Source of the DNA: Colwellia sp. 20A7
GTDB lineage: Bacteria; Pseudomonadota; Gammaproteobacteria; Enterobacterales; Alteromonadaceae
Direction: 5' to 3'
Length of the DNA stretch: 64,000 nt
Assembly (NCBI RefSeq): GCF_009832865.1
Contig: NZ_CP047130.1
Coordinates: 3,596,001 to 3,660,000, forward strand
The notes under the pieces were generated by a model. It searched no databases and was not told where the DNA came from. It saw only the letters and a program-made list of their open reading frames with translations. Of this stretch, positions 1 to 45,187 are shown piece after piece. A program made the position numbers and the translations under genes. Every line of letters starts with the position of its first letter. The first letter of the stretch is position 1.

Positions 1-758
1 TGACCAACGCAATCGTCAAATGCAGCAATAGTGTAAGCCCCTAAAATAGCTTCCGTTGGCGCAGCAGCATCTAAGGTTACGCCATTAAATGCTACACCAA
101 TACTATCTCGACCGACTGATGAAGGACTATCTCGTGGCACAGGTGTTGTTGGAATTAAAAAGGTCGACGAAATTCCTTCACCATCATCACCGCTGTAATA
201 ACTAATTTCACATTGCACACAAAAGTTATTATATTCTTCAGCGACATCAGGTCTTGCTGCCGCTTCGCATGCTATTTGTGTATCGGTAATATTAACTTCA
301 CCAGTGTCTTCATTGTATAACTGCCAAGTACTATCACCGTAAAAAACATCTAAATTAGTAATAAACTCGCCAGTAAGATCATATAACACACCATCATCAA
401 ACCATTTGCCAGCATCAGCTGCTTCCGTGGAAGTCGATTCTGGACAAAATGGACCCAGTACCGTTCTATCTGAAGGAAAGCCACTCACCGTAATAGAGTA
501 ACAAGTCGATTCCTCACCGTTTGATAACGTACAGGCTACTTCGGTTACCGATTCAGTTAACGATGCTTCAAACCTTGTGGTATCAACTAAATAATTACCT
601 GGCTCATTATCATCCTCAACCACAACTTCCGTTAATTCTTCAGTTTCATTTTGTGAATCACTACTACCGCAGCCAAAAAGCAATAAACTACTAACGACAG
701 GAACACACAAGGTAACTGCTTTTCTTGCAAAAGATTGGGTTATATAAATTTTACGCAT
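1..758 (-). CDS. YHYH-domain lipoprotein (3' end outside window)
   Basis: Open frame from the ATG at 756-758 running leftward off the window (about 252 codons visible). The N-terminus is a lipoprotein signal peptide with lipobox LLLFGC, so the product is probably an envelope lipoprotein. An acidic linker (about residues 35-50) follows, then a Cys-containing globular part. The last visible residues (SIGVAFNGV, then AYTIAAFDDCVGH) match the segment just before the HxxYHYH signature of YHYH-domain proteins; that motif itself would lie outside the window. The molecular function of YHYH proteins is not established. Divergent from the gene at 1187. Confidence 0.75.
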   Translation of the reverse strand, partial: MRKIYITQSFARKAVTLCVPVVSSLLLFGCGSSDSQNETEELTEVVVEDDNEPGNYLVDTTRFEASLTESVTEVACTLSNGEESTCYSITVSGFPSDRTVLGPFCPESTSTEAADAGKWFDDGVLYDLTGEFITNLDVFYGDSTWQLYNEDTGEVNITDTQIACEAAARPDVAEEYNNFCVQCEISYYSGDDGEGISSTFLIPTTPVPRDSPSSVGRDSIGVAFNGVTLDAAAPTEAILGAYTIAAFDDCVG

Positions 759-1186
759 AAGGACGCTCTCATTATTTGTTTAAATAATGATATCGAATGA
801 TTGTGTAAAGAATATGCAAAACAATAAAAATAATAAAATTAACTATTTCTGATCATCAGAATGTACTTTTTATCTTGTTTATAAATTACTTACGTCACTG
901 CAACCAGAGCTTCTCTATATTCTCTTTACTTTAATTATCTTTAATTTTCATTACCTTATTCACCTCAGCCTAAATTTACTCATTGTTATAAGACTAATGT
1001 TTCTTTTTACTTTATAGTATTAGCTAACAATACTGGCAGCGTTTGTAACATAATGATCTCAGTACTTTTTTAAGGTACTGCTCGCGTTAAGCTGTTACAC
1101 GATAAAGTTACTTAGTTAGCTGTCATAATTAGCCAGCTATCATTTTTAAAATTACCATTTCACAGTGCGATCACAATAGGAATATT
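759..1186. other. Divergent intergenic region
   Basis: AT-rich 428-bp spacer between two divergent exported-protein genes, presumably holding both promoters. Short inverted repeats are visible: CAGTAC at 1060-1065 with GTACTG at 1075-1080, and TAGCTG/CAGCTA near 1118-1140. I see no ORF of interest and no convincing -35/-10 pair. Confidence 0.4.
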
Positions 1187-2356
1187 ATGTTTAAAAAGAA
1201 AATATTACTAACCATAACCGCCTTACTGCTAAGTAATGCTACTTATGCAACGCAATTAACGGTTGAAGAGTTACGCATTGAAAACGCGATAATTAAAATG
1301 CCTGAGGTAATGAAGGCTTTTACCACTAATATTGATGACTTTAAACAAGCATGGCAAGCAGCAGATAGTTATCAAAATGCTAAGAACATAACAATATTAC
1401 ACGCTCAAAAGCTCTGGTTCGACGCAAAAAACAAAGTACAATCGGCAGCAACACTCGACGATCGTCCTTTATACTGGGCTCGACTGCTTGCAAGTAAAGT
1501 TATTCGCTCAAATTCGCCATCATTCGAGCTTTCTATGCAGCAAACACAGGCTTTATTAACCTTGTTTGAACAAGGCTCTAGAGGACAAATGGATCTTGAG
1601 TATACGCAAGCCACTCATAAAAAAATATTATTAACCGGGTTCGACCCATTCTTGCTTGATAAAAATATTAACCAAAGTAACCCTTCAGGTATTGCTGCAT
1701 TAAAGCTTGATGGTCAAGTAATTACCTATAAAGGTATTACAGCTGAAATTAACACAGTTATGATCCCTGTTCGCTATAAAGATTTTGATGAAGGACTCAT
1801 TGAATCACTGCTTGCACCCTATTACGCATTAAATAATGTAGATATGATTGTAACCGTGAGTATGGGGCGTAAAGAATTTGATTTAGAGCGTTTTCCTGGC
1901 AAGCGTCGAAGTGTAACAGCACCCGATAATTTAAATATTCTTTCCGGTGGTACTAAAGAAGCCCCCATCATTTCCAAACTTCATAATAAACCATTACCTG
2001 GTGAAGAATTTGTGCTTTTTAGTCTTCCTATAAAGCAAATGCAGCTTGCTAAGGGCCCTTATAAAGTCATTGATAATCATAAAGTAACCAGTATCGATGA
2101 GTCACTCAAGCCAAAAGATATTGAGCCTCATACCCTGTCACAACTTAATGGTCATGTAGCGGTTAACGGATCAGGCGGTGGTTATTTATCAAATGAAATT
2201 TCATATCGCAGCATAAGATTAAGAGATCAGCTCAACTCCAATATCCCAACAGGTCATATACATACGCCTAGAATTCAACAATTTGAACCAGAAATTGAAG
2301 CGAAAATAGTACAGCAAATTCGCACTATGCTAGAGCTATCATTAGAAGCCATTTAA
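1187..2356 (+). CDS. Exported pyroglutamyl-peptidase I (C15)-like protein, Cys to Ser
   Basis: 389 residues starting with a Sec signal peptide (Lys-rich start, hydrophobic core, cleavage near ATYA). Residues about 145-375 resemble peptidase C15 (pyrrolidone-carboxylate peptidase): KILLTGFDPF corresponds to the family GFxPF start. The catalytic Glu appears kept (E234 in FDLERF) and so does the His (H359 in GHIHTP). The catalytic Cys position is occupied by Ser (S335 in GYLSNEISY, where the family has a (Y/F)VCN-type motif). About 120 N-terminal residues before the domain are extra; cytoplasmic Pcp enzymes are about 215 residues. RBS AGGAA at 1178-1182. It could be an inactive binding homologue or a serine-based peptidase; periplasmic location is inferred from the signal peptide. 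Confidence 0.7.
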   Translation: MFKKKILLTITALLLSNATYATQLTVEELRIENAIIKMPEVMKAFTTNIDDFKQAWQAADSYQNAKNITILHAQKLWFDAKNKVQSAATLDDRPLYWARLLASKVIRSNSPSFELSMQQTQALLTLFEQGSRGQMDLEYTQATHKKILLTGFDPFLLDKNINQSNPSGIAALKLDGQVITYKGITAEINTVMIPVRYKDFDEGLIESLLAPYYALNNVDMIVTVSMGRKEFDLERFPGKRRSVTAPDNLNILSGGTKEAPIISKLHNKPLPGEEFVLFSLPIKQMQLAKGPYKVIDNHKVTSIDESLKPKDIEPHTLSQLNGHVAVNGSGGGYLSNEISYRSIRLRDQLNSNIPTGHIHTPRIQQFEPEIEAKIVQQIRTMLELSLEAI

Positions 2357-2384
2357 CCTTATTGCGTAAAGTAATAATGTAAAA

Positions 2385-2526
2385 GGCGAATAAATTCGCC
2401 CCTACGATAATTATAATCAATCGCTTCATAGGACGTTTCTGTATGGGCGACTTCAGTCGTCTGTCCTACGGTGATAATAATCACCACCTTCGCAGGACAT
2501 TTTTTGTAGGGGCGACTTCAGTCGCC
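2385..2526. repeat. REP cluster 1 (5' of RAYT gene)
   Basis: Contains REP-b (2385-2405, stem GGCGAA/TTCGCC followed by CCTAC), a degenerate REP-a (2441-2460) and an intact REP-a (2506-2526: GTAGG head plus stem GGCGACTTCAGTCGCC). A GTAG tetranucleotide followed by a hairpin is the canonical layout of REPs handled by REP-associated transposases, and a RAYT gene follows immediately. Confidence 0.85.
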
Positions 2527-2610
2527 TGATAATACCAATCAATTAACCACAACAAAGACCTCAATTATTTGACTATAATAAATACAAATCACATCAAAAA
2601 GATTTTGATT

Positions 2611-3072
2611 ATGCCACGTACTAATCTTATTAAAGGTAGAACATCTCTTAAACATCATGTCTACCACATCACAACATGCACAGAAAATCGCAAACCATTC
2701 TTTCATAACTTTCAATGCGCTCGTTTGTTAATTAATGAAATGAAAGGCCTAACTAACCAACATGAAGTTAAATCCATTACCTGGGTGATCATGCCAGACC
2801 ATTTACATTGGTTATTTCAGCTAACGTCAGATAAGAGTTTGTCAAAAATGATTCAAACATTAAAAGGTCGTAGTTCTAGAGCTATTAATAAACACAGCAA
2901 CAAAATAAAATTTTCATGGCAACGCGGTTTTCATGATCATGCCATTAGAACAGAGGAAAGTTTAATAGCGGTATCACGATATATTGTCGCCAATCCATTA
3001 CGCGCAGGTTTAGTAGAAAATGTGGGAGATTATCCGTTATGGGATTCAGTATATTTGGATGGCGATGAATAA
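2611..3072 (+). CDS. REP-associated tyrosine transposase (RAYT, Y1/HUH family)
   Basis: 153 residues from the ATG at 2611; an upstream in-frame TTG at 2569 is less likely because MPRTNLIKGRTS matches typical RAYT starts. The HUH-type metal-binding motif is visible in MPDHLHWLF, and the catalytic Tyr is in SRYIVANPLRAGLV, both characteristic of Y1_Tnp/TnpA-REP proteins. Such enzymes nick single-stranded REP hairpins next to a 5' GTAG and are usually single-copy, domesticated genes flanked by REPs. Arrays of GTAG-headed palindromes lie on both sides (2385-2526 and 3101-3541), and matching elements recur through the window, so this protein is the best candidate for having spread them. Full length with both motifs intact suggests it is or was recently active. 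Confidence 0.88.
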   Translation: MPRTNLIKGRTSLKHHVYHITTCTENRKPFFHNFQCARLLINEMKGLTNQHEVKSITWVIMPDHLHWLFQLTSDKSLSKMIQTLKGRSSRAINKHSNKIKFSWQRGFHDHAIRTEESLIAVSRYIVANPLRAGLVENVGDYPLWDSVYLDGDE

Positions 3073-3078
3073 ACCTTT

Positions 3079-3545
3079 TGTAGAGGCGCTTTCTGTATTT
3101 GGCGAATAAATTCGCCCCTACGGTCATGATTTGAAAATTGTTCATATGTTATTTGCTATAGGGGCGTTTGTAGGGGCGACTTCAGTCGCCTGAACACAAT
3201 ACACGCCAATAACTTTGCATTATGTTATATCCCATTATTTGGCGAATAAATTCGCCCCTACGGTGATGATTTGAAAATTGTTAATATGTTATTTGCTATA
3301 GGGGCGTTTGTAAGGGCGACTTCTGTCGTCTGTTCACAATACACGCCGGTAACGCTGCATTATGTTATATCCCATTATTTGGCGAATAAATTCGCCCCTA
3401 CGGTCATGATTTGAAAATTGTTCATATGTTATTTGCTATAGGGGCGTTTGTAGGGGCGACTTCAGTCGCCTGAACACAATACACGCCAATAACTTTGTAT
3501 TATGTTATACCTCATTAATAGGCGAATAAATTCGCCCCTACAGTG
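3079..3545. repeat. REP cluster 2: tandem array with 140-bp period
   Basis: REP-b hairpins start at 3101, 3241, 3381 and 3521, exactly 140 bp apart. REP-a copies at 3170-3190, 3310-3330 (degenerate) and 3450-3470 alternate with them in inverted orientation. The spacer between is also conserved (TTGAAAATTGTTCATATG and CATTATGTTATATCCCATT segments), so the whole 140-bp unit was duplicated. Lies immediately 3' of the RAYT gene. Confidence 0.9.
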
Positions 3546-3640
3546 ATGCACTTCGAGATTGAATCTGCCAATTTCTTCTTGGTGCGGTATTTGAAAAACT
3601 AACAGCAGAAGAAGCGCTAATCGGTATACTGCAAATAAGA

Positions 3641-3667
3641 AAAAACCGACATAAAAGTCGGTTTTTT
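3641..3667 (-). terminator. Intrinsic terminator of dnaX-ybaB
   Basis: AACCGAC / GTCGGTT hairpin with a 6-nt loop flanked by A and T runs, 52 bp past the ybaB stop. The flanks make it usable in both directions. No recR follows before it. Confidence 0.75.
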
Positions 3668-3718
3668 ATAAGCTTACTATGGGTTTTATATAAAAATATA
3701 GCACCTCATATAATAAAC

Positions 3719-4045
3719 CTAAAACGGCATTTTCATCCCTGGTGGTAATTGCATACCGCCAGTTAATGAGCCCATTTTATCTTTATTTTGTTCTTCTACA
3801 CGGCGTACAGCATCATTTACTGCAGCAGCAAGTAGATCTTCAATAAGATCTTTATCATCTTCCATTAAGCTATCATCAAGCTCAACTTTACGTACGCTGT
3901 GGCTACCAGTCATAGTAACTTTAACCATACCTGCACCAGATTCACCTACCACTTCCATTTTGGCCAGTTCTTCTTGAGCTTTTTGCATTTTTTCTTGCAT
4001 TTGTTGGGCTTGCTTCATCAAATTGCCCATACCGCCTTTCATCAT
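3719..4045 (-). CDS. ybaB: Nucleoid-associated protein YbaB/EbfC
   Basis: 108 residues with the family N-terminus [20 protein letters not shown] (residues 7-26), a heterogeneous middle and a Met/Pro-rich tail. YbaB/EbfC is a small homodimeric DNA-binding protein with tweezer-like shape that coats the nucleoid. It lies 107 bp downstream of dnaX in the same direction, the usual gammaproteobacterial arrangement, and is preceded by a GGAGAG ribosome-binding site. The usual next gene, recR, is absent: a terminator, REP arrays and the RAYT gene follow instead. Two consecutive Met codons leave the start uncertain by one residue. Confidence 0.93.
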
Positions 4046-4152
4046 TACTCTCTCCGATAAGTTATTTTAAAAATGGTTAAAAATATTTATTGCTCTCATT
4101 ATACCAATATGGTGTCAAAGCAACATTTTAAAAGGTGTTATTAACAAAAAAA

Positions 4153-6369
4153 TCAAATTGGCGTAATACTATCTTCATCCAAGGTCGCTTGAAAGTGTTG
4201 TACTAAGCCTTGTACCAATTCATCTTTTCTCAATAAGTCTTTTGCATAATCATAACGTTTATCATTTATATGTGACTGAATTTGATAAGGATCAGCAACG
4301 GTTTGCTCAACTATATTAATAGTTACTTGTATATTGCGTGATAAAAACTGACTGATACTTTGTTGTAGTTGCTGTTGCGCTGTGTCAGTGTATAAATGTT
4401 TTGTCGCTTGATTTAAGCATAAAATTAAATTGTTGTCTGTCGAATTCTCATCAATAGTTGCATGAATTGCTAACTGCCTTAAACGCGCAGTAAGCTCCAT
4501 TGAATCAATCATATGTGCCCATTGATCAACTTGATTCGCTTTACGAATAGTTGCAGGGTCAATACTTTCCGCTTGATATGGCTCGGCAGGTTTAGGTAGC
4601 GCTATTTTTTCAACATCAGCCTTTGCTGAACCTGTATTTTCTGAGCCTTTGTTTAATGTACTTTGATTACCGATATCAACTTGACGCGCTATGGCGCCAT
4701 CAGACTTTTTTCCCTGCTTATCCAATTGTTTTTTTCGGCTGCGTAACATATTACGAGTCGCTAACACTGAGCTTACCGGGCTATTAAATGCAGATGTATC
4801 ATCTGCTTTTATTGGTGCAGTTGATGTATTCGTAGGATCTGCGTGCATGGGCTCTGGGTGTATAGGTCGCTCATTAAGAGTTTGCTCTTGAATCGCGGGC
4901 TTCTGATGTTGTTTTTCTTGTTCATGTTCATGTTCTTGTTTTTGTTCTTGTCCAGAAAAATTATTTTCTTGCGTCGGTGCTATTTCTTCTACGATACCTT
5001 GCGGTACAAAGTTTTGCGTGGCTAAATCTGGTGACGCTTCACCTTGTGGAACATAGCTATTATCTTCTGCAACATGAGGCACTTCATCTGCTTGACTTGA
5101 AAATGGTATTGGCTCAGCTTGTTGAATATCAACCGCCTGTTGCTCTATATCATGCATTTGTTGTGCTAAAGCTTGCTCATCACTTGAAGACGTTTCCATA
5201 AACGCATCATCTAAACTCTTGATGTCAGATACAGGAGCAGTTTGATTAAGTGCACTCGCTTCTATTGGCGGTAACGACTCTTTCTGCATTGGTTTAAACG
5301 CAAATAAACGCAGTAACGTCATATCAAACGCTGCTTGTTCATCTGATGCATAAGGCAAATCTTTACGGCCATTAACACAAATTTGATAAAAAAGTTGCAC
5401 ATCTTCTGCGGACATCGACTGACTAAATTTTTTCAGTAATTGTGCGTGTTCTGTAGGTAAATCAAAATGTTGATCAACAATTTGTAATATCGCTATTTGA
5501 TGGAAAAGCTGTATAAGCTCAGCGTATAAACGGCTATAACTAGGCGCATAACTTGCTATTTCTTGGGATAACGCCATTAAACTTACCCCGTCTTGTTTTA
5601 ATAACGCAATAACAATTTTATACACCCAATTTTGATCTAATCCACCTAACATTTCTTGAATATTAGGCAACGTTATATTGCCCTGACCTTGCGCTATCGC
5701 TTGGTCAGTTAAACTTAAAGAGTCACGCATACTGCCTCTGGCAGCTTTAGCCAGTAAGGTTAATGTACCACTAGCATGGGTAACGTTTTCATAGCCTAAT
5801 ATTTCGGTCAGTTTACTTTCAATTTGCTTAACCGTTAGCGCTTTTAAATGAAACTGTAAACAACGAGATAACACAGTAACCGGCAATTTTTGCGGATCGG
5901 TAGTCGCTAAAATAAATTTTACATGTTCAGGCGGCTCTTCTAACGTTTTCAATAACGCATTAAAGCTATTACGCGACAACATATGCACTTCATCAATAAG
6001 GTAGACTTTATAGCGACCACGTGTTGGCGCATACTGCACGTTATCTAGAATTTCTCTAGTGTCATCTACCTTAGTTTTTGAGGCTGCATCAATTTCAAGT
6101 AAATCAACAAATCTACCTTGATCTATTTCCAAACAGGTATCACATTTTCCACATGGTGTGGCTGTAATACCTGTTTCACAGTTCAAGCTTTTAGCAAAAA
6201 TTCTGGCGATTGTGGTTTTACCCACACCTCGTGTTCCCGTAAATAAATACGCATGATGTAAACGTTGTTGCAGTAAAGCATTAACAAGTACAGTAACTAC
6301 ATGTTCTTGCCCTACAAGCTCTTCAAAACACTTGGGACGCCATTTTCTTGCTAAAACTTGATAACTCAT
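4153..6369 (-). CDS. dnaX: DNA polymerase III subunits gamma and tau
   Basis: 738 residues. AAA+ clamp-loader motor: Walker A GTRGVGKT at 45-52, zinc module Cys64/73/76/79, Walker B LIDEVH near 124-129, sensor 1 ATTD at 155-158, SRC motif at 168-170. A lid and collar follow to about residue 370, then an unusually long Gln/Glu/Ala-rich linker (about 370-600; it includes an EQEQKQEHEHEQEKQHQ stretch) and the C-terminal tau domain that binds Pol III alpha and DnaB. E. coli tau is 643 residues; the extra length is in the linker. At codons 553-555 the frame reads GGA AAA AAG, the same A AAA AAG slippery heptamer used in E. coli dnaX, and -1 slippage reaches TGA after one codon. That would give a gamma form of about 556 residues. 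Lies 6 bp downstream of apt. Confidence 0.97.
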   Translation of the reverse strand: MSYQVLARKWRPKCFEELVGQEHVVTVLVNALLQQRLHHAYLFTGTRGVGKTTIARIFAKSLNCETGITATPCGKCDTCLEIDQGRFVDLLEIDAASKTKVDDTREILDNVQYAPTRGRYKVYLIDEVHMLSRNSFNALLKTLEEPPEHVKFILATTDPQKLPVTVLSRCLQFHLKALTVKQIESKLTEILGYENVTHASGTLTLLAKAARGSMRDSLSLTDQAIAQGQGNITLPNIQEMLGGLDQNWVYKIVIALLKQDGVSLMALSQEIASYAPSYSRLYAELIQLFHQIAILQIVDQHFDLPTEHAQLLKKFSQSMSAEDVQLFYQICVNGRKDLPYASDEQAAFDMTLLRLFAFKPMQKESLPPIEASALNQTAPVSDIKSLDDAFMETSSSDEQALAQQMHDIEQQAVDIQQAEPIPFSSQADEVPHVAEDNSYVPQGEASPDLATQNFVPQGIVEEIAPTQENNFSGQEQKQEHEHEQEKQHQKPAIQEQTLNERPIHPEPMHADPTNTSTAPIKADDTSAFNSPVSSVLATRNMLRSRKKQLDKQGKKSDGAIARQVDIGNQSTLNKGSENTGSAKADVEKIALPKPAEPYQAESIDPATIRKANQVDQWAHMIDSMELTARLRQLAIHATIDENSTDNNLILCLNQATKHLYTDTAQQQLQQSISQFLSRNIQVTINIVEQTVADPYQIQSHINDKRYDYAKDLLRKDELVQGLVQHFQATLDEDSITPI
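4683..4711 (-). promoter_or_regulatory. Programmed -1 frameshift site in dnaX
   Basis: On the minus strand the heptamer AAAAAAG occupies 4711-4705 in phase A AAA AAG. After a -1 slip the next codons are GTC then TGA, the same one-codon-then-stop layout as in E. coli dnaX. Just downstream, GATGGCGC CATA GCGCGTC can fold into a stem with one bulged G, a plausible stimulator. I do not see a clear Shine-Dalgarno stimulator upstream. Confidence 0.7.
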
Positions 6370-6375
6370 ATAATT

Positions 6376-6921
6376 TTATTCACCAGAATATTGCACAAGA
6401 GATGACGTAGTAAGGCCGATTGCTTCTAATCGCTTCTCACCCCCTAAGTCAGGTAAAGAAATAACAAAACCTGCATCCTTCACTTCAGCACCAATGCGGC
6501 GTATCAATTTCGTCGTCGCCTCGATAGTGCCACCGGTTGCAAGTAAGTCATCAATAATTAACACTTTGTCATCAACACTTAACGCATCACGATGAATTTC
6601 TAATACATCTTCACCATATTCAAGTTGATAAGCTTGTGCAAAAGTTTGTCTAGGAAGTTTACCGGGTTTACGAACAGGAATAAAACCAAGACCCAATGCT
6701 AGTGCTAAAGGCGCACCAAATAAGAAACCTCTAGCTTCAGTACCAACAACCTTGGTAAATCCTTGGTCTTTATATTTTTCAGTGAGCAGGTCTATCGTTA
6801 ATGCAAAGGCTTCTGCGTTTTCTAGTAGACTAGTAACGTCGCGGAATAAAACACCTTCCACAGGGTAATCAGGGATTGCTTTGATGGCAGATTTTAATTG
6901 TGCTAATTGTTGTTCAGTCAT
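6376..6921 (-). CDS. apt: Adenine phosphoribosyltransferase
   Basis: 181 residues, usual length for bacterial Apt. It makes AMP from adenine and PRPP in purine salvage. The PRPP-binding motif [13 protein letters not shown] is at about 120-132, the dimer/loop segment [11 protein letters not shown] at 84-94, and EARGF at 62-66 is typical of Apt. Ends 6 bp before the dnaX start, so apt-dnaX-ybaB is probably one transcription unit, an order also found in E. coli. Confidence 0.96.
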
Positions 6922-7012
6922 TACTGTTCTTATACCGAGTAAAAATTTAATAATGACAAAGAATAAAACAATTCAGCCGATATTTATAGTGATGATCTTA
7001 TTTACATTACTA

Positions 7013-7396
7013 TTACAGGGCTATTTTTGTTCGGACATTACCCAGTAAACACTTTACTGTAGACATAAACTTAGTTTCATTCACAGGTTTAGTGACAACA
7101 TTACTAAATAAATTAAATTCTGGTAAGTTTTCTACACTTTGTTTATTTTGCGTTGTCATAAACAAAACAGGCGTTGGCGCACAAAAAGGTGTTTGCTTAA
7201 GGTTTTTAGTTAAGGTTGCACCATTCATTAATGGCATAAGGTGATCAATAATATAAAGATGAAATGATTCTTTTTGCGCTTTTTCAAAGCCATCTAGCCC
7301 GTTAACCGCGGTAGTAATAGTGTACCCAACTGATGTTAATAGTTTACTAATATTTTCTCGTACACTTTTGTTGTCATCAATTACTAAAATATTCAT
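7013..7396 (-). CDS. Single-domain response regulator (CheY-like receiver)
   Basis: 127 residues consisting of one receiver domain: acidic pair D7-D8 (LVIDDNK), phosphoacceptor D51 (IIDHLMPLMNG), Thr at 81-82 and Lys103 in VTKPV. There is no output domain, so it acts by protein-protein contact like CheY or as a phosphorelay intermediate. The ATG at 7396 is preferred over an in-frame GTG at 7408 because receiver domains begin at MNILVIDD. The partner kinase is not in the window; it stands alone between apt and pgi. Confidence 0.85.
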   Translation of the reverse strand: MNILVIDDNKSVRENISKLLTSVGYTITTAVNGLDGFEKAQKESFHLYIIDHLMPLMNGATLTKNLKQTPFCAPTPVLFMTTQNKQSVENLPEFNLFSNVVTKPVNETKFMSTVKCLLGNVRTKIAL

Positions 7397-7408
7397 ATAA
7401 AACTTCAC

Positions 7409-7756
7409 GCCTATATATCAATTAGTCCTTATTTCGGACTACGCTACAAAGATATAGCTTCCCTTCACGGTGCGTATTTTACCCTAAATAAAGATAATAA
7501 CAAAGCCCAGTATTATTACAGTTTTATTCTAGTGTTACTATTTCCTTACACGATGTTGTTCTATTTATTTATGGTTAATTAAGCGGTCGTCTAGAGAAGT
7601 TATGTATGCGGGGATTGCTCAAACTAGTGCAGGTAAATCACCTTAAGAATAAAGCAGCTAAACACCAAAGATTAGGGCTGTCTGTACTCAGCCCTATAGC
7701 TTCCTATATGGCTGAGTACTCGCTGAGTATATGGCTAAGCATATAAAATATGGTTA
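7409..7756. other. Intergenic region pgi / response regulator
   Basis: 348 bp without a convincing gene. TAGTCC/GGACTA forms a small hairpin just upstream of the response-regulator start (about 7424-7442). TAGGGCTG/CAGCCCTA at 7673-7696, 60 bp after the pgi stop, could end pgi transcription but lacks a good U-tract. Confidence 0.35.
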
Positions 7757-9641: not shown

Positions 9642-10541
9642 CTATAGAGACAAGGTTTTCAAGAAATCTTTAAACTCTGCGCCTAACTCATGATGTCTTA
9701 ATGCATATTCAACATTGGCTTTCATATAACCTAATTTGGAACCACAATCATGTGATTTACCTGTCATATGAAAAGCTTCAACCGTTTCTTTTTCCATTAA
9801 CATCGCAATAGCATCAGTTAATTGAATTTCATCTCCTGCACCTGGAGGCGTTATTCTTAATAATTCCCATATTTTTTCAGATAACACATAACGACCAACA
9901 ACGGCTAAGTTTGAAGGCGCATCTTCGACTGCAGGTTTTTCAACAACCGCTGTCATAGGTTGTGATTCGCCAGGAGCTAGCTCAACGCCACCACAATCAA
10001 CTACACCATAACTACTTACTTGTTCCATAGGTACAGGTTCAACCATTATTTGGCTATAACCACCCACATCTTGGTATCTGCGAAGCATTGCCGCTAAATT
10101 TTCAGTTTTTAAATTAGCAGAAGCTTCATCTAAAATAACATCAGGTAATACTACAACAAATGGCTCTTCGCCAATAATAGGTCGTGCTTTTAATACCGCA
10201 TGACCAAGCCCTTTTGCTTCACCTTGGCGAACATGTAATATGGTGACATCTTTAGGACAAATTGCTTGAATCTCTTCAAGCAATTGACGTTTAACACGTT
10301 TTTCTAATGTAGTTTCAAGCTCAAATGATTTATCAAAATGATTTTCAATAGCGTTTTTAGAAGAGTGAGTAACCAATACTATTTCTTTAATACCTGCAGC
10401 AACACATTCGTCAACAATATATTGAATTAATGGCTTATCAACTATCGGTAGCATTTCTTTTGGAATAGCTTTAGTCGCTGGTAACATACGTGTACCTAAC
10501 CCTGCGACAGGAATTACGGCTTTGGTTATTTTCTTGTTCAT
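9642..10541 (-). CDS. galU: UTP-glucose-1-phosphate uridylyltransferase
   Basis: 299 residues, close to E. coli GalU (302). It forms UDP-glucose from UTP and glucose-1-P. The nucleotidyltransferase loop [18 protein letters not shown] is at about 14-31 and the VVEKP motif near 200; the Asp in VLPDVILDE aligns with the metal-binding acidic residue. UDP-glucose feeds LPS, capsule and osmoprotectant synthesis, possibly including the glycan cluster at 46.8-52 kb. Divergent from the gsp operon. Confidence 0.96.
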
Positions 10542-15951: not shown

Positions 15952-17184
15952 ATGGCAGCATTTGATTACCTTGCGGTTGATAGCCGTGGGAAAAATAAAA
16001 AAGGTGTTATTGAAGGTGATACACCAAGGCAAGCCCGCGCATTATTGCGTGAACAAGGTTTAATGCCGACGGAAGTAACCCCTACCCTTACTCATAATAA
16101 AAGTAAAACAGGTAAAGCTAGCTCGGGTAAGAGCAAAGGCACAGGAAAAATATCTGCTGCTGAATTGTCTTTAATTACTCGCCAGTTAGCTACCTTAGTA
16201 GAGTCGGGATTACCACTAGAAGAGTCGCTAGTAGCCGTTGCCGAGCAAGGTGAAAAAAATCGTATTAAAAGTATGATTATGGGTGTGCGCACCAAGGTAA
16301 CTGAAGGTTATGGCTTAGCAGAAAGTCTCGCTGAATATCCAAAAGTATTTAATCATTTATACCGTGCTATGGTTGCGGCAGGTGAAAAATCAGGACATTT
16401 AGATAAAGTATTAAACCGTTTAGCTGATTATACTGAAAAACGAGAACAGATGCGTTCTCAACTTATTCAAGCCTTAGTGTACCCTGTTATTATGACAGTG
16501 GTTGCTATTGGTGTAATCGCGATATTGTTAACTAAAGTTGTTCCCCAGATTGTAGGGCAATTTGAGCACATGGGCGCAAATTTACCTGGTTCAACTAAAT
16601 TTTTAATTGCCAGCAGTGAGTTTTTACAAGCGAATGGTCTTTTGATTGTTTTATTCATTGCCGGTCTTATGTTAATAGTTTCAGAGCTATTGAAGAAACC
16701 AAAGTATCAGATGATCTTCCATCAAAGACTTATCTACTTACCGGGTATTGGTAAAGTAGCTAAAGGTCTTAATACTGCACGTTTTGCTAGAACCTTAAGT
16801 ATACTGTCCGCGAGTGCTGTGCCGTTATTAGAAAGTATGAAAATTTCAGGCGAAGTACTTGATAACTTATACATTAAACAGCAAGTAAAGTTAGCGTCAG
16901 ACAAAGTACGTGAAGGATCAAGTCTACATTTATCACTTGAACAAACAAAATTATTTCCACCAATGATGTTGCATATGATCGCCAGTGGTGAAAAAAGTGG
17001 TCAAATAGAGCAAATGTTAGGTCGCGCCGCTGACAACCAAGATAACGAATTTGAAGCATTAATGAATATATCATTAAAAGCATTCGAACCCGCGTTAATG
17101 GTAGGCATGGCAGGGGTTGTTTTATTTATAGTTATGGCCATATTAGAGCCTATATTGAAGTTAAATACCTTTGTTGGTGGATAA
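15952..17184 (+). CDS. gspF: Type II secretion platform protein GspF
   Basis: 410 residues, the usual size. N-terminal segment MAAFDYLAVDSRGKNKKG is typical of GspF. Two cytoplasmic T2SSF domains (about 75-195 and 275-395) are separated by membrane segments near 175-200, 225-245 and 378-400. It is the polytopic core of the inner-membrane platform. It lies 37 bp after gspE. A REP array of almost 500 bp separates it from gspG, which is unusual for this otherwise tightly coupled operon. Confidence 0.96.
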   Translation: MAAFDYLAVDSRGKNKKGVIEGDTPRQARALLREQGLMPTEVTPTLTHNKSKTGKASSGKSKGTGKISAAELSLITRQLATLVESGLPLEESLVAVAEQGEKNRIKSMIMGVRTKVTEGYGLAESLAEYPKVFNHLYRAMVAAGEKSGHLDKVLNRLADYTEKREQMRSQLIQALVYPVIMTVVAIGVIAILLTKVVPQIVGQFEHMGANLPGSTKFLIASSEFLQANGLLIVLFIAGLMLIVSELLKKPKYQMIFHQRLIYLPGIGKVAKGLNTARFARTLSILSASAVPLLESMKISGEVLDNLYIKQQVKLASDKVREGSSLHLSLEQTKLFPPMMLHMIASGEKSGQIEQMLGRAADNQDNEFEALMNISLKAFEPALMVGMAGVVLFIVMAILEPILKLNTFVGG

Positions 17185-17221
17185 ACGTAATATGAAGCGA
17201 GATCCTGAATCAAGTAGATCA

Positions 17222-17690
17222 GGCGACTGAAGCCGCCCCTACAAAACGTCCTATGAAGGTGTTGATTATTTCACTGTAGGGGCGAATTTATTCGCCTAAT
17301 AATGGGATATAACATAATGCAGAGGTTAGTAGTGTGTATTGTGGACAGGCGACTGAAGTCGCCCCTACATACGCCCTAACAAAAACATTGTTAGGCGAAG
17401 GTGAACAACATCACCGTAGGGGCGAATTTATTCGCCTAATAATGCGATATAACATAATGCAGAGGTTAATAGCGTTTATTGTGAAAAGGCGACTGAAGCC
17501 GCCCCTACAAAACGTCCTATGAAGGTGTTGATTATTTCACTGTAGGGGCGAATTTATTCGCCTAATAATGGGATATAACATAATGCAGAGGTTAGTAGTG
17601 TGTATTGTGGACAGGCGACTGAAGTCGCCCCTACAAAAAGATCCTACGAAGTGATTGAATTATTTAACCGTAGGGGCGAATTTATTCGCC
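17222..17690. repeat. REP cluster 3 inside the gsp operon (266-bp higher-order repeat)
   Basis: REP-a hairpins start at 17222, 17348, 17488 and 17614 (spacings 126, 140, 126); each is followed about 50 bp later by an inverted REP-b (for example 17276-17296 and 17670-17690). The units starting at 17222 and 17488 look identical, so the array is a 266-bp dimer repeated. Alternate units also contain a CCTAACA/TGTTAGG hairpin. The spacer (ATGGGATATAACATAATGC) is the reverse complement of the spacer in the array next to the RAYT gene. Confidence 0.9.
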
Positions 17691-17720
17691 TAATAATGTG
17701 TTCAGGCAACAATCTCCGTC

Positions 17721-17746
17721 ATTCCGTAGGTCGCTTAATACGGAAT
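17721..17746. repeat. ATTCCGT palindrome (second repeat family)
   Basis: ATTCCGT...ACGGAAT, 7-bp stem with a 12-nt loop, 48 bp upstream of gspG. Same family as copies at 23850, 24162, 26394, 34796 and a degenerate copy at 57699. Confidence 0.75.
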
Positions 17747-17793
17747 CTCAGGATAATAGAAGTTAAATTTATAAAAGTAATTAGGAAAAAATA

Positions 17794-18246
17794 ATGATTA
17801 AGAAAAATTTAAAAAATACACACAAAAAAGCACAAGGTTTTACGCTATTAGAAGTAATGGTGGTAATTGTAATTATCGGCATGATGTTAAGTGTGGTGGT
17901 ACCAAACTTAATGGGTAGCCAAGACACAGCTAAATTACAAAAGGCCGTGCAAGATGTTACCGCACTAGAAAACTCTTTAAGTATGTATAAATTAGATAAC
18001 TACGATTATCCAAGTACTGAACAAGGGTTAGAAGCATTAACAGATCAAACCGATATTGAACCTATCCCACGTCGCTTTCCTGATGGTGGTTATGTAAAAC
18101 GTCTTCCTAAAGATCCGTGGGGCAACGAATACTTTTTATTGAATCCAGGCGAGCAAGGAAAAATGGATGTATTTACTGCAGGACCAGACGGAGAGGTTGG
18201 CACTGAAGATGATATTGGTAATTGGAATTTGGGCGATTACCAGTAA
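17794..18246 (+). CDS. gspG: Major pseudopilin GspG
   Basis: 150 residues. Prepilin site AQG^FTLLEVMVVIVIIGMM (cleavage after the Gly, Glu at +5), then the C-terminal calcium-binding motif GPDGEVGTEDDIGNW typical of GspG. It polymerises into the T2SS pseudopilus after processing by the prepilin peptidase, which is not in this window. RBS AGGAAA. First gene after the REP array, so its expression relative to gspCDEF may be affected by it. Confidence 0.97.
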   Translation: MIKKNLKNTHKKAQGFTLLEVMVVIVIIGMMLSVVVPNLMGSQDTAKLQKAVQDVTALENSLSMYKLDNYDYPSTEQGLEALTDQTDIEPIPRRFPDGGYVKRLPKDPWGNEYFLLNPGEQGKMDVFTAGPDGEVGTEDDIGNWNLGDYQ

Positions 18247-22478: not shown

Positions 22479-22963
22479 TGAATATCGCTTCACTTAAAAC
22501 ATGGTGGCAAGGGCTTAACTTACGTGAGCAACGTTTAGTGATGGGCGTTGGCGCAGTATGTTCACTTTTTTTACTGTATAGCCTCATTTGGCAACCTCTC
22601 AATGATAATGTTGCCAATGGCAAAACAAGACTTGAGAGCAGACAAGCGCTACTAACATGGGTAACAGAAAACACAGCACGTTATAAAAGCGCGAAATCAG
22701 TCGGTGGTGTAAAGCAAAGCAGTGGTAGTTTATCAAGTATCGTTAATCGCACGGCAGAGCGTCAACAACTGACCATTACACGTATGCAGCCTCAAGGTGA
22801 GATTTTACTGGTGTGGCTTGATAGTGTCCCATTTACCCAGTTACTACTCTGGTTAGAGAGCTTAGCGAATAATGAAGGGTTACAAGTGCAAGCTATTGAC
22901 CTATCGCAAGGTGATAACCAAGGCGAAGTACGAGTGCGTCGTTTACAGCTAGGTAAGCACTAA
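22478..22963 (+). CDS. gspM: Type II secretion protein GspM
   Basis: 161 residues: short cytoplasmic N-terminus ending LREQRLVMG, one membrane segment (about 22-40), then a periplasmic ferredoxin-like fold. Partner and stabiliser of GspL. The ATG overlaps the gspL stop. Confidence 0.93.
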   Translation: MNIASLKTWWQGLNLREQRLVMGVGAVCSLFLLYSLIWQPLNDNVANGKTRLESRQALLTWVTENTARYKSAKSVGGVKQSSGSLSSIVNRTAERQQLTITRMQPQGEILLVWLDSVPFTQLLLWLESLANNEGLQVQAIDLSQGDNQGEVRVRRLQLGKH

Positions 22964-23046
22964 GCGAGTACTCTTTTTAATTTTACGTGTTCCACTGAGT
23001 TAATCAGCAAGAAACAATCAATGAACAACCAAGACTGAGATAATCA

Positions 23047-23811
23047 ATGAGAAATAAGATTGCCATGGGGATTATTTTTTTAATCGCTTATATTGGCTTT
23101 TTAATCGCAACATTACCCACTGCCTTTGTATTAAAGCATGTGACCTTACCTAAAAACGTGATGAATAGTATTTATCTATCGGGGGTGAGCGGCAGTGTTT
23201 GGCATACTCATATTAACCAAGCGATGATTAACGGTGCACCGATTGATAAAGTGGAAGCACGCGTCAGTTTTTGGTCTTTATTGAGTTTAACACCGAAGCT
23301 ATCTATTACTTTTGGGGATTCATTTAAAGCAGGTCCTGAGGGTCAGTTTGACTTAGCACTGTCGTCAGATAAAGCGACATTAACAAACCTTAACTTATTA
23401 GTCAGTGCTAATGACGTTGCACAGCAACTACCACTGCCTTTACCGATGCTAGCGCAAGGTGATGTTAAGTTAACAGTATCATCAGCAGAAATTGACCTCA
23501 CTAAAAACAACCAATGTATTAGTGCAACCGGTAATGGCGCGTGGTCGAAAGCCGGTATTACTGCATTAGATAAAACAGTGCCATTAGGTCAACTTAGCGC
23601 TGACATTAGCTGTGCAAACGGGGTATTAACCTTAGTGATGTCACCAAAAAATGATTTAGGCTTAACCTTTACCGCATCAGTTGGTCAAAATGGCAAAGCA
23701 TCTGGCAAGGGATATTTAACACCAGGCCCTAAGTTTCCAGCCGCCCTTAACGACGCCTTACCTTTTTTAGGTACGCCAGATAGCCGTGGCCGCTACCGTT
23801 TAGTGTTTTAG
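23047..23811 (+). CDS. gspN: Type II secretion protein GspN
   Basis: 254 residues with an N-terminal membrane anchor (about 4-26) and a periplasmic domain; the GSVWHTHINQAMING and GTPDSRGRYRL segments are typical of GspN. It is an accessory T2SS protein not present in every system. Last gene of the operon, 83 bp after gspM; a REP cluster follows rather than a clear intrinsic terminator. Confidence 0.92.
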   Translation: MRNKIAMGIIFLIAYIGFLIATLPTAFVLKHVTLPKNVMNSIYLSGVSGSVWHTHINQAMINGAPIDKVEARVSFWSLLSLTPKLSITFGDSFKAGPEGQFDLALSSDKATLTNLNLLVSANDVAQQLPLPLPMLAQGDVKLTVSSAEIDLTKNNQCISATGNGAWSKAGITALDKTVPLGQLSADISCANGVLTLVMSPKNDLGLTFTASVGQNGKASGKGYLTPGPKFPAALNDALPFLGTPDSRGRYRLVF

Positions 23812-23849
23812 TTTTTTCGTTAACTAGTACACAGGTCACCACCTTTGTC

Positions 23850-24187
23850 ATTCCGTAGGTCATTTAATACGGAATCCCATGCATGTGGTTGAATAGTCGG
23901 TAGGATGGCGACTGAAGTCGCCCCTACATACGCCCTTACAAAAAACATTGCTAGGCGAAGGTGATCGACATCACCGTAGGGGCGAATTTATTCGCCTAAT
24001 AATAAGAACTGGCGACTGAAGTCGCCCCTACATTCACCCTACATACGCCCTTACAAAAAACATTGTTAGGCGAAGGTGATCGACATCAACGTAGGGGCGA
24101 ATTTATTCGCCTAATAATAAGAGCTGGCGATATTCGTCGTCACTCCGTTGCCCTGCCTGTCATTCCGTAGGTTACTTAATACGGAAT
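23850..24187. repeat. REP cluster 4 between gspN and the peroxidase gene
   Basis: Order: ATTCCGT palindrome 23850-23875, REP-a 23907-23927, REP-b 23976-23996, REP-a 24011-24031, REP-b 24091-24111, ATTCCGT palindrome 24162-24187. The two REP pairs form units of about 104-115 bp with the inner TGTTAGG and GGTGAT...ATC segments. The remaining sequence to 24432 is AT-rich with a direct repeat TTATACGT at 24333 and 24345. Confidence 0.88.
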
Positions 24188-26151: not shown

Positions 26152-26419
26152 TCATTCCGTAGGTCCCTACATAAGCCCTTACAAAAACATTGTTAGGCAA
26201 AGGTGATCGACATCACCTTAGGGGCGAATTTATTCGCCCAATAATAAGAACTGGCGACTTAAGTCGCCCCTACATACGCCCTTACAAAAACATTGTTAGG
26301 CAAAGGTGAACGACATCAACGTAGGGGCGAATTTATTCGCCTAATAATAAGAACTGGCGACATTCGTCGTCACTCCGCTGCCCTTCCTTTGTCATTCCGT
26401 AGGTCACTTGATACGGAAT
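26152..26419. repeat. REP cluster 5
   Basis: Starts with a chimeric element (ATTCCGTAGGTC joined to CCTACATAAGCCC at about 26154-26175). REP-b follows at 26218-26238, REP-a at 26253-26273 (here GGCGACTTAAGTCGCC, a perfect palindrome), REP-b at 26321-26341 and an ATTCCGT palindrome at 26394-26419. Degenerate TTCAGAATGAC repeats continue to about 26570. Confidence 0.85.
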
Positions 26420-26486
26420 CCCATGCGTGTGGTTGAATAGTCCGTAGGGTAGCGAATTCATCAACTACACAACATAACGTTTGAGA

Positions 26487-26572
26487 TTCAGAATCAAGTT
26501 CAGAATGACGGTGTTTGTTCAGAGTGACGAGGCAGTAGTTCAGAATGACAAGGCAAGAGTTCAGGGACGGTG
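26487..26572. repeat. TTCAGAATGAC direct repeats
   Basis: ATTCAGAATCAAGTTCAGAATGACG followed by several degenerate copies of GTTCAGAATGAC(A/G)AGGCA. A related copy (ATTCTGAA...TTCAGAAT) is at 44503-44524, just before REP cluster 7. These look like a third short repeat type associated with the REP clusters. Confidence 0.6.
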
Positions 26573-34795: not shown

Positions 34796-35062
34796 ATTCC
34801 GTATTAAGTGATCAACGGAATGACGAAGGAAGGGCAGCGGAGTGACGATGAATGTCGCCTGTTCTTATTATTAGGCGAATAAATTCGCCCCTACGGTGAT
34901 GATAATCAAACCTTTTGTGGGGCTTATTTTTTATCTGGCGAATAAATTCGCCCCTACGGTGATGTTGTTCACCTTCGCCTAACAATGTTTTTGTTAGTGC
35001 ACATGTAGGGTGAATGTAGGGGCGACTTCAGTCGCCTGTTCTTATTATTAGGCGAATAAATT
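34796..35062. repeat. REP cluster 6, running into the glnE stop codon
   Basis: ATTCCGT palindrome in inverse orientation (34796-34821), REP-b at 34874-34894 and 34937-34957, REP-a at 35016-35036, and a truncated REP-b from 35051 (GGCGAATAAATT) that ends in the glnE stop codon (TAA on the minus strand, 35061-35063). Confidence 0.85.
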
Positions 35063-44472: not shown

Positions 44473-44525
44473 GTTCAACAGCTAGACAGCATAACGAGTG
44501 GGATTCTGAATCAAGTTCAGAATGA

Positions 44526-45187
44526 CGACTGAAGTCGCCCCTACATACGCCCTAACAAAAACATTGTTAGGCGAAGGTGAACAACATCACCGTAGGGGCG
44601 AATTTATTCGCCTAATAATAGGAACAGGCGACTGAAGTCGAACCTACATTCACCCTACATATGCACTAACAAAAACATTGTTAGGCGAAGGTGATCAACA
44701 TCACCGTAGGGGCGAATTTATTCGCCTAATAATAAGAACAGGCGACTGAAGTCGAACCTACATTCACCCTACATACGCCCTAACAAAAAACATTGTTAGG
44801 CGAAGGTGAACGACCTCACCGTAGGGGCGAATTTATTCGCCTAACAATAGGAACAGGCGACTGAAGTCGAACCTACATTCACCCTACATATGCACTAACA
44901 AAAACATTGTTAGGCGAAGGTGATCAACATCACCGTAGGGGCGAATTTATTCGCCTAATAATAAGAACAGGCGACTGAAGTCGAACCTACATTCACCCTA
45001 CATACGCCCTAACAAAAAACATTGTTAGGCGAAGGTGAACGACCTCACCGTAGGGGCGAATTTATTCGCCGAATAATAGGAACAGGCGACTGAAGTCGCC
45101 CCTACATACGCCCTAACAAAAAACATTGTTAGGCGAAGGTGACCGACATCACCGTAGGTCACTTAATACGGAATCCCATGCGTATGG
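44526..45187. repeat. REP cluster 7: tandem array of 114/115-bp units
   Basis: REP-a starts at 44526 (partial), 44627, 44741, 44856, 44970 and 45085; inverted REP-b at 44592, 44706, 44821, 44935 and 45050. Two unit types alternate (CATATGCACTAAC with AATAAGAACA; CATACGCCCTAAC with AATAGGAACA), so 44627-44855 and 44856-45084 are near-identical 229-bp dimers. Each unit also holds CCTAACA/TGTTAGG and, in one type, GGTGAT/ATCACC hairpins. In the central units REP-a has decayed (TCGAACC in place of TCGCCCC). The array ends in a chimera with the ATTCCGT element (about 45152-45173). Confidence 0.92.

Follow-up and report, generated by a model that had tools for sequence, protein, structure and literature searches.

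A RAYT gene and two subtypes of GTAG-headed REP mostly gathered in one region of the Colwellia sp. 20A7 chromosome

Introduction

The closest described counterparts of the locus reported here are the REPtrons, or RAYT-REP systems, in which, as here, a Y1/HUH-type RAYT gene has inverted, GTAG-headed and dimorphic REPs on both sides (PMC2817692; PMC8266576). The gathering of REPs near a RAYT gene has been reported before (PMC2817692), and local accumulation was therefore rejected as a new feature. RAYTs of E. coli, S. maltophilia and Marinomonas cleave single-stranded REPs, a reaction in which GTAG plays a part, and the copying of REPs is described as poorly understood (PMC8266576). REPs without a cognate RAYT appear quite often, which might indicate RAYT loss (Nunvar, 2013; PMC3686654).

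Two REP subtypes in opposite orientation in intergenic regions, as found here, are also known as BIMEs and REP heterodimers (Di Nocera, 2013; PMC3733652). According to that survey, heterodimers are exclusive for enterobacterial GTAG-3 dimers, the GTAG-24 dimers of P. aeruginosa have different stems, and most families are spread throughout the genome, T. roseum being an exception; the Colwellia REPs, in contrast, are regional. The same survey describes CGTC repeats, which are interleaved with other repeats in Neisseria, and mentions a few families in which palindromes contain inserted REPs (PMC3733652). REPINs likewise consist of inverted REP pairs linked to a RAYT, and the number of REP doublets resembles a random extragenic spread (Bertels & Rainey, 2011; PMC3116915), whereas in Colwellia the GTAG ends of the two-REP clusters face inward and the majority of clusters are found close to the gene.

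Neither the local REP pattern nor the two subtypes is new, since both are already in print and the repeat system has been described since 2010. Colwellia is not named in the main text of PMC2817692, and the literature searched (most subscription journals lying outside it) named no Colwellia RAYT REPs and contained no CGTC-nested GTAG pairs with a filled-versus-empty comparison. Added here are a landing-site control, a comparison with a close relative (genome G014) and the nesting of REPs in CGTC repeats. Compared with the main text on REPtrons (PMC2817692), the local pattern is examined with two controls, namely landing sites that are empty and a relative in which no RAYT was detected, and the RAYT gene stands at another chromosomal site than in relatives with related RAYTs. 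A closed genome with REPs packed round one RAYT, together with G014 and the filled and empty CGTC sites, provides a compact natural experiment on local action of RAYTs and on the possibility that recombination accounts for the remainder. The window analysed is a stretch of 64,000 nucleotides (positions 3,596,001-3,660,000) of the closed 4,580,615-base chromosome of the marine bacterium Colwellia sp. 20A7 (G000); coordinates below are those of the window unless given as genome positions.

Results and Discussion

The RAYT gene and its surroundings

The gene for the RAYT (REP-associated tyrosine transposase), a domesticated transposase, occupies positions 2611..3072 on the forward strand and encodes a Y1/HUH protein of 153 amino acids from its ATG, the longest open reading frame over it beginning at TTG 2569. 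The RAYT-specific NCBIfam model NF047646 matched at 154.3 bits (cut-off 80) and Pfam Y1_Tnp at 69.6 bits (cut-off 23). The HLH and YIVANP motifs are kept in this protein and in those of four relatives; we take these to be the HUH motif and the motif with the catalytic tyrosine. Among PDB sequences there was a weak similarity to the solved TnpArep structure 4er8 (E 1.5e-7) and a weak match to an IS608-type transposase (E 0.001). As expected of a RAYT, or TnpA-REP, gene, inverted GTAG REPs lie on both sides, the flanking arrays together holding ten REPs at 2385-3541. The preliminary description of this DNA, which placed a Y1/HUH protein with these motifs between REP arrays, was thus correct.

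A chromosome-wide search found a single copy of this type of RAYT. An IS200/IS605 insertion sequence does not fit the single transposase copy, nor the score of 46.4 bits with NF033573, below its cut-off of 55. The only other Y1 match on the chromosome, with 34% identity along part of its length, is a second Y1-type transposase gene, of 228 amino acids, at genome 453.1-453.8 kb (L112:7096-7782, forward strand), with no GTAG hairpin found within 1.5 kb. It was rejected as the source of the 456-kb REP cluster described below, being a different Y1 gene without such hairpins nearby, even though the cluster is only about 2.4 kb away. Long DNA matches in G014 end on either side of this second gene.

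To the left of the RAYT gene is a gene whose 389-aa product weakly matches pyroglutamyl-peptidase, and to the right follow, in order, a short open reading frame (YbaB-like by eye), dnaX and apt. A galU-type gene is found at 9642-10541.

Two REP subtypes in alternating arrays

The two subtypes, REP-a (GTAGGGGCGACTTCAGTCGCC) and REP-b (GTAGGGGCGAATTTATTCGCC), have GTAGGGGCGA in common and differ in their inner stems; when folded alone, each forms a hairpin that leaves the GTAGG head free. The string GTAGGNGCGA occurs 31 times in the window compared with a mean of 0.19 in 100 shuffles. The window contains 39 REPs (19 REP-a and 20 REP-b), 36 of them with an intact GTAG head. On the whole chromosome there are 69 (34 REP-a and 35 REP-b), with a head of exactly GTAG in 63, a weak four-mismatch hit inside gspF at genome 3,612,065 having been removed ahead of counting. 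Both the GTAG head and the presence at the RAYT of two subtypes differing in the inner stem had been put forward in the preliminary description, and both hold.

The left array at the RAYT (2385..2526) consists of REP-b(-) at 2385-2405, REP-a(+) at 2441-2461, which has a GTAT head, and REP-a(+) at 2506-2526. The right array (3101..3541) has seven REPs, REP-b(-) and REP-a(+) alternating with a 140-bp period (family D6). Chromosome-wide, with the pair spanning the RAYT gene excluded, the subtypes alternate in opposite orientation in 49 of 57 neighbouring pairs. The regular spacing, with periods of 140 and about 114 bp, together with this alternation is that of BIMEs. The REPs had been described as paired with their GTAG ends facing inward, which is true of 28 of the 57 pairs, b(-) a(+), and of both two-REP clusters (3,572 and 4,323 kb). 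A further 21 pairs, a(+) b(-), face outward because the arrays simply alternate, and eight are arranged otherwise, six of these at 3,549 kb.

No REP cluster lies wholly within an ATG-started open reading frame of at least 100 amino acids, nor between divergent frames of this kind. A 136-aa frame overlapping the 3,549-kb array looks spurious.

Clustering around the gene

The 39 REPs of the window fall into six intergenic clusters, starting at genome positions 3,598 kb (at the RAYT, ten REPs), 3,613 kb (eight; 17222..17690, between gspF and the next open reading frame of a type II secretion gene cluster), 3,620 kb (four; 23907..24111), 3,622 kb (three; 26218..26341), 3,631 kb (three; 34874..35036) and 3,641 kb (11; 44524..45105, with a spacing of about 114 bp). 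The preliminary figure of at least seven clusters is reached only when the arrays left and right of the RAYT are taken as separate clusters. Five more clusters lie outside the window, at 456 kb (12 REPs), 1,284 kb (three), 3,549 kb (11), 3,572 kb (two) and 4,323 kb (two), which makes 11 clusters in all. A looser chromosome search allowing up to three mismatches gave no additional cluster; it did give two isolated three-mismatch hits, at 383.5 and 910.6 kb, which seem to be chance matches. Inside the type II secretion gene cluster, about 470 bp of REP cluster lie between gspF and the next open reading frame (17184-17794).

Eight of the 11 clusters and 52 of the 69 REPs are contained in 92 kb around the RAYT, or 2% of the chromosome. 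A single 100-kb window takes in eight clusters, a number never reached when 11 points were placed at random 100,000 times (maximum six). Of the ten clusters away from the RAYT, seven lie within 50 kb of it, compared with 0.22 expected. The very high density noted at first is therefore a regional one; the genome-wide dispersal usual for REP populations was not found, and high density across the genome was rejected.

One of the distant clusters has a recognizable local counterpart. The 4,323-kb cluster is included in a segment that matches genome 3,618.5-3,620.0 kb with 98.9% identity along 1,528 bases and also carries a 254-aa open reading frame; the duplicated segment, of at least 1.5 kb (window 22500-24016 and genome 4,323.3-4,324.9 kb, in L116), is thus present 0.7 Mb apart together with a REP pair. 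If the local copy is the older, only two distant clusters, at 456 and 1,284 kb, require an origin of their own, and the 456-kb cluster is the more degenerate of these. A similar segment pair is also seen in G014 (90.6% identity over 1,029 bases).

REPs at related RAYTs in Colwellia

REP-a/b-type matches were found in nine of 39 Colwellia genomes. They include all five whose closest RAYT match is near full length and has an identity of 51% or more (G000, G029, G032, G019 and G036); G020, with a 50% RAYT match, has none, and G013, G017 and G007 have three, one and one, respectively. Genome-wide searches for the same REP type in four relatives, whose RAYTs are 81, 75, 69 and 51% identical, placed the matches no farther than about 0.6 kb from the RAYT in 6/6 cases in G029, 9/9 in G032, 2/2 in G036 and 10/14 in G019. 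The other four G019 matches are scattered, have one mismatch and look like chance or another REP family. In Colwellia sp. 12G3 (G029), G032 and Colwellia sp. MB02u-6, both subtypes likewise adjoin a related RAYT. Judged from this adjacency, a single enzyme for the two subtypes, as proposed in the preliminary description, appears plausible.

The nearest named relatives of the RAYT are from Colwellia, and in the tree the RAYTs of G000, G029, G032, MB02u-6 and G019-C13 were grouped (96/94 support), with the order within the group left open. Long stretches are common to the RAYT neighbourhoods of G029, G032, G019-C13 and MB02u-6 in the five pairings run, and those of G036 and G032 have 130 bases in common, at the RAYT only. 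The RAYT is near dnaX in G000, whereas dnaX is far from the RAYT or on another contig in G029, G032, G019, G036 and G023. These different chromosomal sites indicate that the RAYT gene moved or was transferred within the genus.

A sister REP family (GTAGGCGGGA...) with RAYTs of its own was found in 18 of the 39 genomes. Its clusters were counted at more than 2 kb but no more than 50 kb from the RAYT gene in five of these, chosen for REP number and a known RAYT, with genome sizes rounded and contig ends ignored. G023 had 8 of 26 clusters in this range compared with 0.47 expected (P 1.4e-8, among the matches listed, 69 of 91), G019 3/25 compared with 0.57 (P 0.019), G020 4/20 compared with 0.98 for two RAYT positions (P 0.015) and G022 4/38 compared with 0.95 (P 0.015), all P values being uncorrected. 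No excess was seen in G010 (0/18 compared with 0.67 expected), whose RAYT locus has no sister-family hairpin. G019 and G023 count as one lineage and not as independent tests, because parts of the RAYT locus are common to both and their RAYTs are nearly the same. In G023, 52 of 91 sister-family REPs are contained in 89 kb around the RAYT. Sister-family REPs but no RAYT match were found in G025, G021 and G034. Among the genomes outside the five, G002 has 52 matches.

A close relative with REPs but no RAYT match

G014 has the same gene order as G000 and a protein identity of mostly 85-100% (in the stretches compared, matches under 60% being omitted), and it is on this basis, not on a tree, that it is called close. 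A genome search found 93 REP matches in G014, mostly at the same places as in G000. No RAYT match was obtained at E 0.001 in this assembly of 60 contigs, some of which start in REPs, so that the gene may sit in a gap; a search with window positions 1-7500 gave no DNA match to the RAYT gene either.

In the stretches examined 92 REPs were located. Most (84) correspond in position to the G000 clusters at 456, 1,284, 3,549, 3,572, 3,598, 3,620, 3,622, 3,631, 3,641 and 4,323 kb. Six are on the starts of contigs C49 and C53, where their placement is uncertain and they perhaps represent the missing 3,613-kb cluster. The remaining two form a GTAG pair in a CGTC composite (L124, C9:97911-98000), none being seen in G000; the flanks of this pair had no unique match in the window and hence gave no clean empty site. 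The REPs of G014 are not decayed, since the scan found 70 of 92 to be perfect, and 47 of 68 when applied to G000. Compared with their G000 counterparts, two G014 arrays are longer (ten REPs compared with three and four) and others are shorter; arrays may thus be able to grow without the RAYT.

The preliminary description would have given way if the repeats were equally abundant in related genomes without a RAYT, and formally G014 is such a genome. It may, however, be read in two ways. At the RAYT site of G014 the left flank leads to one REP-b and directly on to a spacer of the right-array type. This could be an empty site, in which case G014 never had the gene, the RAYT was inserted into an existing REP array in G000 and another enzyme spread the REPs earlier; the dnaX-side site is likewise without a RAYT match in five other relatives searched. 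Such a gain is unlikely, given that the relatives searched (G029, G032, G019 and G036) have REPs at a RAYT and that G000 and G014 both carry many REPs at the same loci, while a deletion between direct REP-b copies accounts for the junction in one step. The junction has the form expected after two REP-b copies have recombined, and for this reason loss of the RAYT from G014 is, from the sequence of the site, the likelier reading.

CGTC-type repeats at the REP clusters

Several REP clusters are hosted by a second repeat, which is composed of two units with CGTC heads, C1 (ATTCTGAACTTGATTCAGAAT) and C2 (ATTCCGTATTAAG...TACGGAAT). By eye, the C1 unit has the CGTC head, 8-9 bp stem starting AT and 4-5 nt loop of a CGTC repeat; C2 has a longer loop and fits less well. 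Published CGTC repeats resemble C1 in head, 8-bp stem starting AT and 5-nt loop, again compared by eye, and differ from those here, which hold GTAG REP pairs (PMC3733652). Two pattern searches of the whole chromosome gave 26 and 38 matches, or 31 loci after joining within 1 kb; at these loci the repeats are often heterodimers of C1 and C2 (e.g., L148-L157 and the window positions). Matches in the window are at 17717, 23846, 24158, 26150, 26390, 44501 and 57707. CGTC-type repeats flank the clusters at 23907..24111 and 26218..26341, lie on the reverse strand beside the 17.2-17.7 kb cluster (17717..17738) and the 26.2-26.3 kb cluster (26484..26506), and are joined to the cluster of 11 REPs at 44501-44523.

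Seven REP clusters touch a CGTC-type repeat. All five CGTC loci within 50 kb of the RAYT have GTAG REPs, compared with two of 26 elsewhere, at 456 and 4,323 kb (Fisher one-sided 1.2e-4, the 50-kb limit having been fixed after the G000 positions were known). The 3,631-kb cluster was left out of this count because both patterns missed the variant repeat on its left.

These counts bear on whether the region is merely permissive and collects repeats of all kinds, with the RAYT there by coincidence. CGTC repeats themselves are somewhat dense around the gene, with five of the 31 loci within 50 kb and three more at 55, 56 and 83 kb. In addition, G000, G023 and G019-C8, whose RAYT genes belong to two REP families, each have a galU-type gene no more than about 10 kb from the RAYT; this proximity may be due to chance or to a neighbourhood common to some RAYT sites. 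Nevertheless, GTAG REPs are absent from the three CGTC loci at 55, 56 and 83 kb as well as from 21 more distant ones, while all five inside have them, and the REP-rich RAYT region of G023 has three open reading frame matches of at least 60% identity to the compared G000 stretches. A permissive region is therefore very improbable.

Five of the ten non-RAYT clusters have a common stretch upstream of REP-b that runs past the REP towards the CGTC repeat, and this stretch was found at none of the 13 empty CGTC loci scanned (of 24 empty). The copied unit was thus larger than the REP pair. Such a junction would agree with ectopic gene conversion, in which recombination between occupied and empty CGTC loci moves the REP insert and produces the local pattern without RAYT activity. 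Homologous recombination is expected to favour near partners. Several clusters have CGTC sequence to their left and right, the 4,323-kb cluster is in a duplicated segment, and G014 has long, undecayed arrays with no RAYT found there, all of which are in keeping with conversion. On the other hand, neither pattern search gave a CGTC match at the 1,284-, 3,549-, 3,598- and 3,631-kb clusters (the last having its variant), the REPs of four relatives lie tightly at the RAYT, and the sister family is in excess near the RAYTs of other genomes. Conversion alone is a possible explanation, though hardly the probable one.

A more speculative proposal is that the GTAG REP pairs spread as cargo of the CGTC repeats. 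The RAYT would make or load the pairs near its gene, CGTC loci within about 50 kb would serve as landing pads, and short-range copying would fill them and might outlast the RAYT. If so, RAYT action would be limited in cis by chromosomal distance, and orphan CGTC repeats would gain a way to move with the help of a RAYT.

The locus is most probably a REPtron, with a single-copy RAYT and dimorphic GTAG REPs, arranged as BIMEs of alternating REP-a and REP-b, that have multiplied mainly near the gene. We infer that the RAYT is the agent of this local bias. It would recognize REP hairpins in single-stranded form by binding GTAG and the base of the stem, which the two subtypes share, cleave both, and, by nicking nearby and joining ends, amplify REP pairs in place; this step near the gene is proposed from the published biochemistry of other RAYTs. 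Copies of the pairs may then reach intergenic sites in the vicinity, in many cases within or next to CGTC-type repeats. The arrays would later be reshaped as they grow or shrink and as segments are duplicated, and the RAYT could drop out through recombination between flanking REPs, as G014 suggests. Recombination is invoked on account of the flanks that clusters have in common, the duplicated segment and the junction in G014.

Orientation and stem at other RAYT loci

Orientation and stem were surveyed at 57 RAYT loci (49 of the 80 found and eight from Colwellia), 20 of which have at least three REPs of one group. The inner stem differs by orientation in seven Colwellia loci (L008, L010, L011, L012, L014, L030 and L033); the exception is G019-C13, with the same inner stem in both orientations and another head base. 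Outside the genus the stem is the same in both orientations in L035, L037, L040, L043, L044 and L061, differs in L042 and is mixed in L075. The case for strand-locked subtypes as a new feature is weakened, as heterodimers are already known. L012 and L014 (G011 and G016) contain distant Colwellia RAYTs whose REP stems are quite different (GTCGG...), and here too two subtypes are found on opposite strands.
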